Assembly (NCBI RefSeq): GCF_025791835.1
Contig: NZ_JAOXLP010000005.1
Span: 124,001-188,000, forward strand
Source: Roseomonas xinghualingensis
GTDB taxonomy: Bacteria > Pseudomonadota > Alphaproteobacteria > Acetobacterales > Acetobacteraceae
Direction of reading: 5' to 3'
DNA: 64,000 nt
Positions 45,833 to 50,795 of this stretch are shown here, in pieces. The position numbers and the translations under genes are program-made. Numbering within the stretch: position 1 is the stretch's first letter; the number at the start of each line of letters is the position of its first letter. Below the pieces are notes generated by a model. It was not told the DNA's origin and did no database searches. It was given only the letters and a program-made list of their open reading frames with translations.

Positions 45833-46921
45833 TCAGGCGGGGGTATTGGCCCCCTCGATCGCCGCGATCACCGCCCGCGTCACGGCTTCGGTATCGGCGC
45901 TGCCTCCCAGATCGGCGGTGAAGACGCCATCGGCGCAAACCCGCTCCACCGCCGCCATCAGCGCCTTCGCGGCGGCTGGCTCGCCCAGATGTTCCAGCAT
46001 CATCGCGCCAGTCCAGAAGGTGGCGACCGGATTGGCGATGCCCTTACCCATGATGTCGAAGGCCGAGCCATGGATCGGCTCGAACATCGAGGGAGCGCGG
46101 CGCGACGGATCGAGATTGGCCGTCGGCGCCACGCCAAGCGAGCCCGCCACCGCGCCCGCGAGATCCGACAGGATGTCCGCATGCAGGTTGGTCGCGACCA
46201 CCGTGTCGATGCTCGCCGGCTTGCGCACCATGCGCGCCGCCATCGCGTCCACCAGCTCCTTCTCCCAGGTCACGTCGGGATAGTCGCGCGCTACCTCGGC
46301 GGCGATGTCGTCCCACATCACCATGCCGTGCCGCTGCGCATTGGACTTGGTCACCACCGTCAGCAGTTTGCGCGGGCGCGATCGCGCGATGTCGAAGGCC
46401 ACGCGCATGATCCGTTCCACACCCGCGCGGGTGAAAATAGCGACCTCGGTCGCCACCTCCTCCGGATGCCCGCGATGGGCGCGGCCGCCATGGCCGGCAT
46501 ATTCGCCCTCGGAATTCTCGCGCACGATCACCCAATCGATATCGCCGGGCTCCACGGCGCGCAGCGGGCTGGTGAGGCCGGGCAGCACGCGGGTCGGGCG
46601 GATATTCGCATACTGGTCGAAGCCCTGGCAGATCTTCAGCCGCAGGCCCCAGAGGGTGATGCTGTCCGGCAGCTCTGGATCGCCGACGGCGCCGAAATAG
46701 ATGGCGTCAAATTTGCGCAGCGTCTCCAGCCCGTCCTCCGGCATCATCAAGCCGGTCTGGCGGTAGTGGTCGCTGCCCCAGGGAAGCGTCTCGACATCGA
46801 GGGAGAAGCCGCCATCACGCCGCGCCAATGCCTCCAGCACACGAAGCCCTGCGGGAATGACCTCCTTGCCGATGCCATCGGCGGGAATGGCGGCGATACG
46901 GTGGGTGCGCTTGGAGGGCAT
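45833..46921 (-). CDS. ttuC: Tartrate dehydrogenase/decarboxylase (TtuC-like)
   Basis: 362 residues from ATG at 46921. It belongs to the isocitrate/isopropylmalate dehydrogenase family: THRIAAIPADGIGKEVIPAG at the N-terminus, VRENSEGEYAGHGGRAHRGH, and the metal/substrate signature ATNLHADILSDLAGAVAGSL. These enzymes oxidise tartrate or D-malate with NAD+. The closest well-known subgroup is TtuC of tartrate utilization; LeuB is less likely because leuCD are absent and ttuD and a pyruvate kinase lie across the divergent promoter. Confidence 0.87.
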   Translation of the reverse strand: MPSKRTHRIAAIPADGIGKEVIPAGLRVLEALARRDGGFSLDVETLPWGSDHYRQTGLMMPEDGLETLRKFDAIYFGAVGDPELPDSITLWGLRLKICQGFDQYANIRPTRVLPGLTSPLRAVEPGDIDWVIVRENSEGEYAGHGGRAHRGHPEEVATEVAIFTRAGVERIMRVAFDIARSRPRKLLTVVTKSNAQRHGMVMWDDIAAEVARDYPDVTWEKELVDAMAARMVRKPASIDTVVATNLHADILSDLAGAVAGSLGVAPTANLDPSRRAPSMFEPIHGSAFDIMGKGIANPVATFWTGAMMLEHLGEPAAAKALMAAVERVCADGVFTADLGGSADTEAVTRAVIAAIEGANTPA

Positions 46922-46979
46922 GGTCAATGGTGATCCCAGTCTGTTCAAAGGGCTGTTGGAAAACCCGGCTGTGGCTGGC

Positions 46980-47702
46980 ATGCCGCGCCAGATGAAAAGC
47001 GAGAGCGAAGACCGGGACAGCGCGGCTGGAAACCCGGCACCACGCGCGAGCCTGGGTGAATCCGCCTATCGGGCGCTGCGCGCCCGGCTGCTGGAAATGA
47101 CCCTGCCGCCCGGCCATCAGGCGACGGAGGGGGATCTGGCGGCACAGCTCGGCATGAGCCGCACGCCGGTGCACGAGGCTGTGCTGCGCCTGCAGGCCGA
47201 GGGCTTCCTGGAAGTGCAGCCCCGGCGCGGCATCCGCGTCCTGCCGATCGACCCGACCGGCATGGCCGAAACCTACGAAATCCTGATCGCGCTGGAGGGT
47301 GCCGCCGCGGCGCGCCTCGCGGGCAAGGGCGATGATGCGACGCTCGGCCTCATGGCCCAGGCCACCGAGTCGATGCGGGAGGCCCTCGCCCGTGGCGACC
47401 GCCATGGCTGGGCCGCCGCCGATGACCGCTTCCACCGCGCCCTGGTGCAGAATTGCGGGAATACCCGGCTGGCCCGCATGGCGCAGGAGGCGGCCGATCT
47501 GGCGCAGCGCGCTCGGCTCGCCACCGCCGCCTTGCGGCCGGAACCGGCCGGCTCCGCGGATGAGCATGTCCGCATCCTGGAGGCCCTGCGCCAGCGAGAC
47601 CCGGAAGCTGCCCGTGCCGCCCTTTCGGCGCACCGGCAGCGCGCCAGCGCGGAGATCCTCCGCACGCTCGCCCTCCCCCTGATGCGCCTTGGCGGTCATT
47701 GA
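46980..47702 (+). CDS. GntR (FCD) transcriptional regulator
   Basis: 240 residues from ATG at 46980; a start at 46920 would overlap the ttuC start codon. The winged helix is ATEGDLAAQLGMSRTPVHEA and GFLEVQPRRGIRV, followed by a helical FCD ligand domain (AEVYEILIAL-like AETYEILIALEGAAAARLA; HRALVQNCGNTRLARMAQEA). It lies between the divergent ttuC/Bug and ttuD/pyruvate kinase arms and likely represses them until the acid is present. The 58 bases up to ttuC must hold both promoters' operators. Confidence 0.87.
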   Translation: MPRQMKSESEDRDSAAGNPAPRASLGESAYRALRARLLEMTLPPGHQATEGDLAAQLGMSRTPVHEAVLRLQAEGFLEVQPRRGIRVLPIDPTGMAETYEILIALEGAAAARLAGKGDDATLGLMAQATESMREALARGDRHGWAAADDRFHRALVQNCGNTRLARMAQEAADLAQRARLATAALRPEPAGSADEHVRILEALRQRDPEAARAALSAHRQRASAEILRTLALPLMRLGGH

Positions 47703-47825
47703 GCCCACGCTCCCTGCCCTCTACGGTCCCCTTCTTCCATACCACGATCCATGCAACAAGATTAAAGCGCAGCCTTGCTCCCTCGCCGCCGAGGGTGATG
47801 ATGCTCACCCGCAAGGAGGGCCAGA

Positions 47826-49103
47826 ATGAACTGGGACGACACGAAAGCCCGTGAGGCCCTTCGCAGGATGTTCGACGCCGCCCTGCGCAGCGCCGCCCCC
47901 CGCGCGATCCTGGCGGATCACCTGCCCGAGCGCCCCAAAGGCCGTCTGGTCGTGGTCGGTGCCGGCAAGTCCGCCGCCGTCATGGCCGCCGCCCTGGAAT
48001 CCGCCTGGCCGGAGGTGCCGATGAGCGGCCTCGTTGTCACCCGCTATGGCCATGCCGTGCCCACCGCCAGGATCGAGGTGGTGGAGGCGTCCCACCCCGT
48101 TCCCGACTTGGCCGGCGAAGCCGCGGCAGCGCGCATCCTGGCGCTGGTGCAGGATCTGGCAGCGGATGACCTCGTCCTTGCCCTGATCTCCGGCGGCGGC
48201 TCGGCCCTGATGCCTTTGGCTGCTCCTGGCCTGACATTGGCCGACAAGCAGGCGGTGAACCGCGCCCTGCTCGCCTGCGGCGCCACCATCAATGAGATGA
48301 ACGTGGTCCGCCGCCATCTCTCCGCGATCAAGGGCGGACGTCTGGCCGCCGCCGCCTACCCGGCGCGGATGGCGACGCTCGCCATTTCCGACGTGCCCGG
48401 CGACGATCCGGCCGCCATCGCCTCCGGCCCTACCGTGCCGGACCCTAGCAGCTTCGCCGATGCCCGCGCCATCGTGGCCCGATACGGCATCGCCCTGCCC
48501 GATGCGGTCCGCGCCCATCTCGACGCCGCCGCCGAGGAAACGCCCAAGCCTGACGACCCCCGTCTCGCCCACGCCGAATACCGGATGATCGCCACTCCGC
48601 TGATGGCTCTGGAGGCCGCGGCGGCGGAGGCGCGCGCCCTTGGCCTCACCCCGCTTATCCTGGGCGACGCGCTGGAGGGTGAGGCGCGCGATGCCGGCAC
48701 CCTGCTCGCCGGTATCGCGCGCTCCGTCGCGGCCCATGGCCAGCCCTTGCCCAGACCCGCCGTACTGCTTTCCGGCGGGGAGACGACCGTCACGCTGGGC
48801 GACGCGAATGGTGCCGGGGGCCGCAACGGTGAATGCCTGCTCGGCCTCACCGTTGCCCTGGCGGGCCATCCGGGCATTTGGGCGCTGATGGCGGATACCG
48901 ATGGTATCGATGGCTCCGAAGAGAATGCTGGCGCCCTTTCGGCACCGGACACCCTGGCCCGCAGCCGGGCCGCTGGCATTGATCCGCTGGCGGCCCTGGC
49001 GGCACATCGGAGCCATGACGTGTTCAAGGCTGTGGGAGATCTATTGGTCACGGGTCCAACCCTGACCAATGTAAACGACTTCCGGGCAGTCTTGGTCGCT
49101 TAG
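47826..49103 (+). CDS. ttuD: Glycerate 2-kinase / hydroxypyruvate reductase family (TtuD-like)
   Basis: 425 residues. It is the DUF4147/MOFRL family: GRLVVVGAGKSAAVMAAALE, VLALISGGGSALMPLAAPG, INEMNVVRRHLSAIKGGRLA and the MOFRL segment LLSGGETTVTLGDANGAGGR. Originally called hydroxypyruvate reductase TtuD, members are now known to phosphorylate glycerate to 2-phosphoglycerate. In Agrobacterium ttuD is followed by ttuE, a pyruvate kinase, as here. Confidence 0.9.
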   Translation: MNWDDTKAREALRRMFDAALRSAAPRAILADHLPERPKGRLVVVGAGKSAAVMAAALESAWPEVPMSGLVVTRYGHAVPTARIEVVEASHPVPDLAGEAAAARILALVQDLAADDLVLALISGGGSALMPLAAPGLTLADKQAVNRALLACGATINEMNVVRRHLSAIKGGRLAAAAYPARMATLAISDVPGDDPAAIASGPTVPDPSSFADARAIVARYGIALPDAVRAHLDAAAEETPKPDDPRLAHAEYRMIATPLMALEAAAAEARALGLTPLILGDALEGEARDAGTLLAGIARSVAAHGQPLPRPAVLLSGGETTVTLGDANGAGGRNGECLLGLTVALAGHPGIWALMADTDGIDGSEENAGALSAPDTLARSRAAGIDPLAALAAHRSHDVFKAVGDLLVTGPTLTNVNDFRAVLVA

Positions 49104-49118
49104 CAAAATTAATATACT
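49092..49118 (+). promoter_or_regulatory. Promoter of the HTH-pyruvate kinase gene
   Basis: TTGGTC at 49092-49097 and TATACT at 49113-49118, 15 bases apart, within a stretch much richer in A/T than its surroundings. Transcription would start near 49125, just before two palindromes that run up to the ATG. No Shine-Dalgarno sequence precedes that ATG. Confidence 0.5.
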
Positions 49119-49128
49119 TACCCCCTCC

Positions 49129-49160
49129 TAAGGTTACCTTAACTGCACTAACTTTAGTGC
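49129..49160 (+). promoter_or_regulatory. Two adjacent palindromic operators directly before the pyruvate kinase start
   Basis: Palindrome 1 is TAAGGT-T-ACCTTA at 49129-49141. Palindrome 2 is GCACTAA-CT-TTAGTGC at 49145-49160 and ends at the base before the ATG. Both are perfect and lie just downstream of the expected transcription start, the place for a steric repressor. The fused helix-turn-helix domain is the obvious candidate to bind them; the GntR protein is the alternative. Confidence 0.6.
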
Positions 49161-50795
49161 ATGCGCGACAAGGCTCTCGAAGAACTTCTCTCCCAACGTG
49201 GTGCCGTTACCCGGATTGCGACCGGCCTCGGCATCTCCACCGCAGCCGTCTCCCAATGGCGCCGCGTTCCACCCGAGCGGGTGGAAGAGGTGGCGCGCAT
49301 CATGGAGGTAGCGCCCGAGACGCTCATCCGCCCTGACATCCCGCCCGCAGGAGCGCACCGCTTGGCCAGCCGCATTCCCATCCGGCGCCGCCGGCGCACG
49401 AAGATGATCGCGACACTCGGGCCCTCCAGCACCGCGCCCGAGGTGATTGAACGACTCTTTCGCGCGGGCGCTGACATCTTCCGCCTGAACTTCTCCCATG
49501 GCTCCCACGAGGACCACGCCGCCCGTATCGCCACGATCCGCGAGATCGAGCGGAAAACCGGTCGCCCGATCGGCATTCTGGCCGATGTGCAGGGCCCGAA
49601 GCTCCGCGTGGGCAAGTTCGCCGGCGGCCGCGTGCAGCTCCAGGCCGGCCAGACCTTCCGGCTGGACCTCTCCCCGGTGCCGGGGGATGTCCGCCGCGTG
49701 CAGCTCCCGCATCCCGAGATCATCTCCGCCGCCCGCATCGGCACCACGCTGCTGCTCGATGACGGCAAGCTGCGCCTCGGCGTCACCCGCAAGCGCGACG
49801 ACCATCTGGAGACCGAGGTGCTGGTCGGCGGCCCGCTTTCGGACCGCAAGGGCGTGAACGTGCCGGACGTGGCCCTGCCCATTCCGGCACTGACCGAGAA
49901 GGACCGCGCGGACCTCGACTTCGTGCTGGAGCAGGGCGTCGAGTTCATCGGCCTCTCCTTCGTCCAGCGGCCCGAGGACGTGGCCGAGGCCAAGGCCATC
50001 GCCAATGGCCGGGCCTGGATCATGGTGAAGATGGAGAAGCCCCAGGCCGTCGAGCAGATGGACGGGATTCTGGACCTCGCGGATGCCGTGATGGTCGCCC
50101 GTGGCGACCTGGGCGTGGAATGCCCACCCGAAGAGGTTCCGCTGATCCAGAAGCGCATCATCCGCGCCGCCCGCAGCCGCGGCCTGCCCGTGGTGGTGGC
50201 GACGCAGATGCTGGAGAGCATGATCTCCGCCCCGACGCCGACCCGTGCCGAGGCCTCGGACGTGGCCACCGCCGTCTTTGACGGCGCCGATGCCGTGATG
50301 CTCTCCGCCGAGACCGCTGCCGGGCAATATCCCTTCGAGGCGGTGAACATCATGGACCGAATCATCGCCCGCACCGAGCAGGACCCCGGCTGGCGCGCAA
50401 ACACCGATAATGCCCGCCCCGAGCCGCGCCACACCTCATCCGACGCCATCGCCGCCGCGGCACGGCAGGTGGCCAGCACGATCGATGCCCAGGCCATCGC
50501 CGCCTTCACCTCCACCGGCAGCACCGCGTTGCGCGTGGCCCGGGAACGCCCCGGCGCACCGATCATTGGCCTGACCGCGAACGAGTGCACCGCCCGCCGG
50601 CTCGCCCTTGTCTGGGGTGTGCATCCGGTGCTGAGCAAGGAACCCGCGAGCATGGGCGACATGGTCGTCAAGGGAATCCGCGCCGCTGGCACCGAAGGCT
50701 TCGCCGCCCCTGGCGAGGAGGTGGTGGTGGTGGCGGGCGTGCCATTCGGCACCCCCGGCACCACGAATGCGCTACGCGTCGCGCGAGTCGAATAG
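49161..50795 (+). CDS. pyk: Pyruvate kinase with N-terminal Cro/YdaS-like HTH domain (TtuE-like)
   Basis: 544 residues. Residues 1-60 look like a Cro/YdaS-type helix-turn-helix: AVTRIATGLGISTAAVSQWR, then RVPPERVEEVARIMEVAPET and RPDI. After a ~15-residue basic linker (IPIRRRRRTK) comes a complete pyruvate kinase: RLNFSHGSHEDH, ADVQGPKLRVG, IPALTEKDRADLDFVLEQG, IMVKMEKPQAVEQMDGI with the catalytic Lys, MVARGDLGVE and VATQMLESMI. The kinase part is ~468 residues, the normal length. There is no stop between the domains. A TTG at 49362 with AGGAG eight bases upstream could start a kinase without the HTH. Pyruvate kinase turns PEP and ADP into pyruvate and ATP; position after ttuD fits TtuE. Confidence 0.9.
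   Translation: MRDKALEELLSQRGAVTRIATGLGISTAAVSQWRRVPPERVEEVARIMEVAPETLIRPDIPPAGAHRLASRIPIRRRRRTKMIATLGPSSTAPEVIERLFRAGADIFRLNFSHGSHEDHAARIATIREIERKTGRPIGILADVQGPKLRVGKFAGGRVQLQAGQTFRLDLSPVPGDVRRVQLPHPEIISAARIGTTLLLDDGKLRLGVTRKRDDHLETEVLVGGPLSDRKGVNVPDVALPIPALTEKDRADLDFVLEQGVEFIGLSFVQRPEDVAEAKAIANGRAWIMVKMEKPQAVEQMDGILDLADAVMVARGDLGVECPPEEVPLIQKRIIRAARSRGLPVVVATQMLESMISAPTPTRAEASDVATAVFDGADAVMLSAETAAGQYPFEAVNIMDRIIARTEQDPGWRANTDNARPEPRHTSSDAIAAAARQVASTIDAQAIAAFTSTGSTALRVARERPGAPIIGLTANECTARRLALVWGVHPVLSKEPASMGDMVVKGIRAAGTEGFAAPGEEVVVVAGVPFGTPGTTNALRVARVE

Follow-up and report, generated by a model that had tools for sequence, protein, structure and literature searches.

Why should pyruvate kinase, the enzyme of the last step of glycolysis and among the most studied of metabolic enzymes, begin with a DNA-binding domain of phage type, and does that domain act on the enzyme's own gene? 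The question is raised by a locus of Roseomonas xinghualingensis, one of the Roseomonas-like group of pink soil and water bacteria, lying in a stretch of 64,000 nucleotides that was analysed as a whole (the window). From the sequences compared, the reading we favour is that a phage cro gene together with its operator and promoter was captured in front of the pyruvate kinase gene (pyk), giving rise to what would be an autorepressing pyruvate kinase that was later lost several times; we put the probability of this reading at about 0.78. The gene and its parts are as follows.

49161..50795, plus strand: HTH-pyruvate kinase fusion gene, 544 amino acids, ATG start, frame open to the stop codon
49161..49340, plus strand: helix-turn-helix (HTH) domain of P22-Cro/YdaS type, residues 1-60, assigned from Pfam, invariant alignment residues, solved Cro relatives and pN/pS
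49341..49379, plus strand: linker, residues 61-73, differing among relatives in both length and sequence
49392..50345, plus strand: pyruvate kinase barrel domain (PF00224), residues 78-395, Pfam E 2e-110
50442..50780, plus strand: pyruvate kinase C-terminal domain (PF02887, PK_C), residues 428-540, Pfam E 2e-36

By sequence, the open reading frame is a complete pyruvate kinase with an N-terminal Cro/YdaS-type HTH and a short linker. Both kinase domains (PF00224, PF02887) score above their cut-offs, as do the whole-protein models PRK06247 of NCBIfam (685 bits, cut-off 623) and TIGR01064 (500 bits, cut-off 306), and in an alignment of 30 fused proteins the long conserved blocks vary little or not at all. 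The fusion is the sole pyruvate kinase match in the genome among 28 candidates scored. Residues 1-77 alone reach 32.7 bits with P22_Cro (PF14549, cut-off 30.2) and the whole protein 28.1; for YdaS_toxin (cut-off 30) the values are 28.1 bits for the N-terminus alone and 24.1 for the whole protein. A profile built from 17 N-termini matched the solved Cro proteins of Xfaso1 (3bd1, E 1.3e-7) and P22 (1rzs, E 2.9e-6) over the HTH; these solved chains comprise 61-79 residues, whereas the fusion continues into an enzyme. By analogy with Cro, we take S26-W33 (ending AAVSQW) to be the likely recognition-helix region. Solved pyruvate kinase chains begin to align at residue 73 of the window's protein or higher (60 shown of 101 matched). 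The initial annotation, which had read the frame as a Cro/YdaS-like domain joined in frame to a complete pyruvate kinase with about 75 extra N-terminal residues, is borne out on both counts, by the open frame, by the Pfam and NCBIfam models and by the profile comparison that places the N-terminus with the Cro proteins.

The extension is widely kept. A search with residues 1-80 against 5.8 billion proteins (under a length rule that hides stand-alone HTHs) returned 420 candidates, 86 of which were hits at E <= 0.001; by their listed Pfam domains all 86 carry P22_Cro and the pyruvate kinase barrel, and they are named pyruvate kinase wherever the source gives a name. A scan of species genomes yielded a set of fused loci, the best 80 of 95 relatives, all from Roseomonas-like genera or from metagenome-assembled genomes of Acetobacteraceae, Rhodospirillales or Alphaproteobacteria. 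An in-frame pyruvate kinase followed the HTH in 79 of the 80 by automatic test, and the remaining locus (L072) reads through into the kinase on inspection. In a family sample of 150 genomes, 145 had a pyruvate kinase match and, among the matches listed, 17 align from residue 1. Within the window's genus the fusion is present in 11 of 15 genomes. Five stand-alone HTH proteins of 64-73 residues (P0113, P0116, P0142, P0147 and P0181) are also named 'pyruvate kinase' by their source, probably by name transfer from the fusion.

Selection on the three parts was measured as pN/pS by comparing the window with nine close relatives (L033-L041). The ratio was 0.204 in residues 1-60 and 0.134 in the kinase, against 1.008 in the linker. 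Purifying selection thus acts on the HTH and not on the linker, and the HTH has been kept as a protein domain on a free linker. As the extension is kept in 86 proteins and at 80 Roseomonas-like loci with a pN/pS of 0.20, it is neither chance nor a misread start. An artefact of start choice is ruled out, residues 1-60 being both conserved and constrained. A second, distant pyruvate kinase-like match (35-39% identity) occurs in addition to the main pyk in 6 of the 15 genomes of the genus (L379-L384).

What this domain might bind is suggested by the DNA just ahead of its own start codon.

49138..49152, no strand: O1, CTTAACTGCACTAAC, an inverted repeat at -23 relative to the start codon, one mismatch from CTTA-N7-TAAG
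49099..49113, no strand: O2, CTTAGCAAAATTAAT, a second copy with one mismatch, at -62, overlapping the stop codon of the upstream gene
49144..49161, no strand: perfect 8-2-8 palindrome, TGCACTAA-CT-TTAGTGCA, ending in the start codon

The 15-bp inverted repeat CTTA-N7-TAAG starts at -23/-24 from the ATG in 76 of the 80 fused loci (64 exact, 12 with one mismatch). It is absent there within one mismatch from four (L044, L057, L060 and L104), and at the fused locus L014 a site within one mismatch was not found. A second copy at -52 to -72 accompanies O1 in 60 of the 80, with a spacing between O2 and O1 that ranges from 37 to 47 and equals 41 in half of these two-site loci (30/60). Within the 110 nucleotides upstream, 78 of the 80 loci hold an exact repeat and 61 at least two copies with up to one mismatch. 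Over 80 distinct upstream sequences, the window's included, the left half-site has column frequencies of C 0.86, T 0.96, T 0.88 and A 0.86 at -23 to -20, and the right half-site T 0.90, A 1.00, A 0.89 and G 0.76 at -12 to -9; T at -7 (0.80) and C at -1 (0.90) are also conserved. The exact repeat was found in none of the 300-nucleotide upstream regions of 51 unfused pyk genes, two of which have a copy with one mismatch; these 51 are not a random sample, as they combine 13 loci of the family sample with 40 from the top of the list, less two in which the script did not locate the pyruvate kinase motif. In the window's genus, both sites (up to one mismatch) occur in all 11 fused genomes and in none of the three unfused genomes checked, out of four. 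The perfect 8-2-8 palindrome was considered as the operator and dropped, since by eye it is not common to ten fused relatives of the genus, which share the overlapping CTTA-N7-TAAG instead.

The sites are also rare elsewhere. A search of 395 genomes for the double site gave a match in 32, and the reversed control pattern matched one genome among those listed; for the single repeat, the reversed pattern matched 30 times in the window's own genome, although its different letter order makes it a poor yardstick. Of 30 double-site loci inspected, 29 sit 8-9 nucleotides ahead of an HTH-pyruvate kinase start, the exception being L129 (genome G195), and in genomes G003 and G292 the matches lie, by position, just ahead of HTH-pyruvate kinase genes. 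Across sixteen fused genomes the exact single site occurs 39 times, and 18 of these occurrences are at pyk. Nine of the 21 others were inspected: six fall in open frames of at least 130 codons and three (L121, L124 and L128) lie outside such frames, and two off-pyk sites from related Belnapia-like genomes (L127, L128) proved on comparison not to be homologous. A wide regulon was thus not seen among the 9 of 21 off-pyk exact sites inspected in these 16 genomes. An exact copy of CTTA-N7-TAAG was not found in the window's own genome, both of whose sites carry one mismatch. The contrast between fused and unfused genes and the genome-wide rarity of the repeat rule out its occurrence by chance.

A constrained Cro-type HTH and conserved operator-like palindromes at the gene's own start together make the protein a probable repressor of that gene. 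The proposal of the initial annotation, a direct metabolite-sensing repressor (trigger enzyme), is supported in part: the sequence comparisons make repression of its own gene probable, and gating by PEP, pyruvate or sugar phosphates would be a further, hypothetical property. The position of O1 fits such a role.

49149..49154, plus strand: TAACTT, at the place of a predicted -10 element (TAAGNT in relatives), -12 to -7, overlapping O1, located from column frequencies

In the relatives, TAAGNT is preceded near -35 by bases that resemble TTG (T 0.59; G 0.46 or T 0.38; G 0.71), a layout that suggests a sigma-70 promoter from which transcription would start at the A of the ATG. As O1 would cover the predicted -10 element, binding there should repress. 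The window's own -35 is poor, and a strict sigma-70 scan of the window found no promoter at the start of pyk. Leaderless mRNAs have been mapped for cI and cro of phage PY54, whose promoter lies immediately upstream of the start codon (PMC4488713, in the part available). In its promoter layout and in a transcript that starts from the AUG, mapped in PY54 and predicted here, the fusion resembles PY54 cro; it differs in that PY54 Cro is suggested, in the same part of that paper, to repress cI but not itself (PMC4488713), whereas autorepression is proposed for the HTH-pyruvate kinase.

The start codons admit a second product. A shorter, HTH-less kinase made from an internal start, next to a full-length autorepressor, is compatible with the autorepressor reading and is possible, if on the whole doubtful; the regulator would then make up just part of the enzyme pool. 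Among the 80 relatives, the 11 codons around the ancestral start include an ATG in 61, which is what keeps the shorter product in play, and 43 of these 61 have a Shine-Dalgarno-like 4-mer ahead of it, a count made without a chance control; the outer start has such a 4-mer in only 16 of the 80, as would also suit a leaderless message. Nevertheless, nine relatives offer only GTG or TTG and ten have no internal start codon at all, and the window has a TTG that is not conserved as such.

The conserved repeats might alternatively serve promoter function alone, the HTH being a passive relic: pyk would have taken over the strong promoter of a phage, the cro codons persisting only as part of the piece that brought promoter and start codon. 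The coincidence of the right half-site TAAG with the predicted -10 element is what one would then expect, and the imperfect sites of the window could be read in the same way. We nevertheless regard this explanation as improbable. Purifying selection acts on the HTH and not on the linker; the CTTA at -23 to -20 and the distal O2 are conserved though a promoter needs neither; and neither feature is present in the unfused genes of the clade that holds the fused ones. That another protein, such as a resident Cro/CI-like repressor, is the main occupant of the operators, with the HTH of the kinase serving DNA localisation, oligomerisation or repressor titration, is very improbable. Stand-alone Cro/YdaS relatives do occur, both in databases and in the family's genomes, and the site is also used by some phages; yet the sites accompany the fusion and not the unfused pyk of the same family, and 18 of the 39 exact sites in the 16 fused genomes lie at pyk.

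If the enzyme does repress its own gene, where did domain and operator come from? Phage contigs gave 154 HTH relatives, of which the best 80 were taken and 19 with a duplicate upstream sequence removed, leaving 61 loci. These stand-alone phage Cro relatives carry the exact CTTA-N7-TAAG at -23/-24 of their own ATG in 13 of 61 cases, and in 18 of 61 with up to one mismatch, while letter-shuffled phage upstream sequences had the exact site at that position in 0 of 12,200. The other 43, among them L282, L285 and distant relatives of about 50 residues, have no site within one mismatch at -23/-24. In the best-matching phage loci (L279-L289) the site is present in seven of nine distinct ones, L282 and L285 being those without it. 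A divergent frame lies upstream in all eight phage loci examined; in three of them (L287, L290 and L308) its start is 82-83 bp distant and it matches phage repressor families, and in the other five the longest divergent frame starts nearer or overlaps. In a tree of HTH domains, the 21 pyruvate kinase rows, grouped with a single phage row (SH-aLRT 95), adjoin the site-bearing phage Cros, with weaker support (76 and 90) for this neighbourhood; with few columns and long branches the tree was used only as support. To judge from these sequences, a phage cro module was most likely the common source of the HTH domain and the operator/promoter, taken up as one unit.

In the cultured Komagataeibacter phage phiKM1, a Cro-like gene missing from the annotation (L366:2501-2677) lies opposite an XRE regulator, with a variant CTAA-N7-TTAG repeat upstream, CTAAACATGGTTTAG.

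The later history was read from a tree of 95 pyruvate kinase domains, where all 44 fused rows fall in one supported clade together with 13-14 unfused rows. The fused or unfused state requires at least seven changes on this tree, and the unfused members of the clade have neither the HTH nor the operator. The pattern is explained most simply by one gain and several losses. Independent contrasts on supported (starred) branches numbered two and were not significant, and with only two supported contrasts the association of fusion and site on the tree is not callable significant.

The favoured reading can thus be put as a sequence of events. In an ancestor of the Roseomonas-like Acetobacteraceae, the cro gene of a temperate phage, with its own promoter and operator, would have been captured before the chromosomal pyk and fused to it in frame. 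Pyruvate kinases commonly form D2-symmetric tetramers, and the product would be an active pyruvate kinase bearing Cro-type HTHs on such a tetramer; D2 symmetry would offer four HTHs, in two pairs, for two operators. The HTHs would bind CTTA-N7-TAAG at -23 (O1, on the predicted -10 element) and at about -64 (O2). Once enough enzyme was present, both operators would be occupied and transcription of pyk, as a putatively leaderless mRNA, would stop, a negative autoregulation. That a single tetramer bridges O1 and O2 is speculative and, the spacing being variable, not required.

A wider joint reading, in which the ligand state of the tetramer gates DNA binding, capture of Cro-type HTHs with their operators recurs, and phage and host operators cross-talk, seems to us unlikely. 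As the operator is also in use in some temperate phages, phage Cro or CI and the host HTH-pyruvate kinase could, on this joint reading, act on each other's sites; if so, glycolytic flux would be wired to a phage switch and the HTH-pyruvate kinase would act on the promoters of incoming phages.

The genes upstream of pyk suggest which ligands might matter for the putatively autorepressing enzyme.

47826..49103, plus strand: glycerate 2-kinase-like gene directly upstream, with DUF4147 and MOFRL scoring above cut-off and the glycerate 2-kinase models of NCBIfam below theirs
46857-47702: GntR-like regulator beyond the glycerate 2-kinase-like gene, no model reaching its cut-off
45833-46981, divergent: tartrate dehydrogenase, TIGR02089 above cut-off

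The region 45833-49103 is likely to encode a tartrate/glycerate route into phosphoenolpyruvate (PEP). Since tartrate, glycerate and 2-phosphoglycerate all feed into PEP, this route would be a natural source of candidate effectors. A glycerate kinase gene ends within 200 nucleotides of the ATG in 47 of the 80 fused loci and within 300 nucleotides of the pyruvate kinase motif in 42 of the 51 unfused loci; this gene order is therefore old, and the HTH module was inserted into it between glycerate kinase and pyk.

PutA is a proline dehydrogenase that represses putA and putP through a ribbon-helix-helix domain in the absence of proline. Like PutA, the fusion joins a metabolic enzyme to a DNA-binding domain, proposed here to work on the protein's own promoter; it differs in having a pyruvate kinase, a phage Cro-type domain and phage-like operators. 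PutA, BirA and NadR are described as trigger enzymes with DNA-binding domains, PutA as a regulator of a single target (PMC8249747, in the part available). In BzdR, an XRE-type HTH is joined to a shikimate kinase-like domain that recognises benzoyl-CoA as the inducer (PMC3602430, in the part available). Judged against that part, BzdR is like the fusion in linking an N-terminal HTH to a kinase fold and unlike it in that the kinase of the fusion is complete by sequence and the sole pyruvate kinase match in its genome. With PutA, BirA, NadR and BzdR already known, an enzyme with a DNA-binding domain is of a known kind, and by homology the fusion protein carries such a domain as trigger enzymes do. 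Searches of open-licence papers on pyruvate kinase and DNA binding or regulation listed no form with a DNA-binding domain of its own, which agrees with the remark in the initial annotation that no described pyruvate kinase of this design was known to it.

If the favoured reading is true, the amount of enzyme at the last glycolytic step would be set by the enzyme itself, through one protein and one operator region, without a separate regulator. The locus would also be a case of the origin of a trigger enzyme, in which a phage repressor module was captured whole, domain and operator together, and later losses removed both.

The same HTH type stands at the front of other proteins, so that the HTH-enzyme design looks recurrent from the sequences at hand. 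CysD, a sulfate adenylyltransferase subunit (PF01507), has an N-terminal YdaS-type HTH at six loci (L200-L205; L203 confirmed by Pfam), and all six genes have CTTTAG-N5-CTAAAG (up to one mismatch) within 140 nucleotides; this repeat was found at none of the nine unfused cysD genes in which the CysD motif was located, out of 26 scanned. A TorD/NarJ-like chaperone with an N-terminal YdaS-type HTH was recognised by eye at nine loci of the family (L190-L195, L197-L199; L190 by PF02613), four of which have TAAG-N5-CTTA upstream. Among 190 alphaproteobacterial genomes sampled, 12 gave a match that exceeds the YdaS cut-off; the frames that contain the seven best matches are 274-588 codons long. Six of these seven (L360-L365) look TorD-like, L364 being confirmed by Pfam, and TAAG-N5-CTTA was found upstream of none of the six. 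The seventh, a gene for an NAD(P)H-hydrate repair enzyme (L359:823-2532; YjeF_N plus Carb_kinase), has an N-terminal YdaS/Cro HTH and TAAG-N5-CTTA upstream. In the HTH tree the CysD and TorD sets form separate groups which, together with the variety of partner proteins, points to repeated capture. The parallel CysD, TorD-like and NAD(P)H-hydrate-repair fusions suggest a general route to trigger enzymes. At one further locus (L189) the same HTH type is followed by a sequence that looks, by eye, like a CcdA antitoxin.
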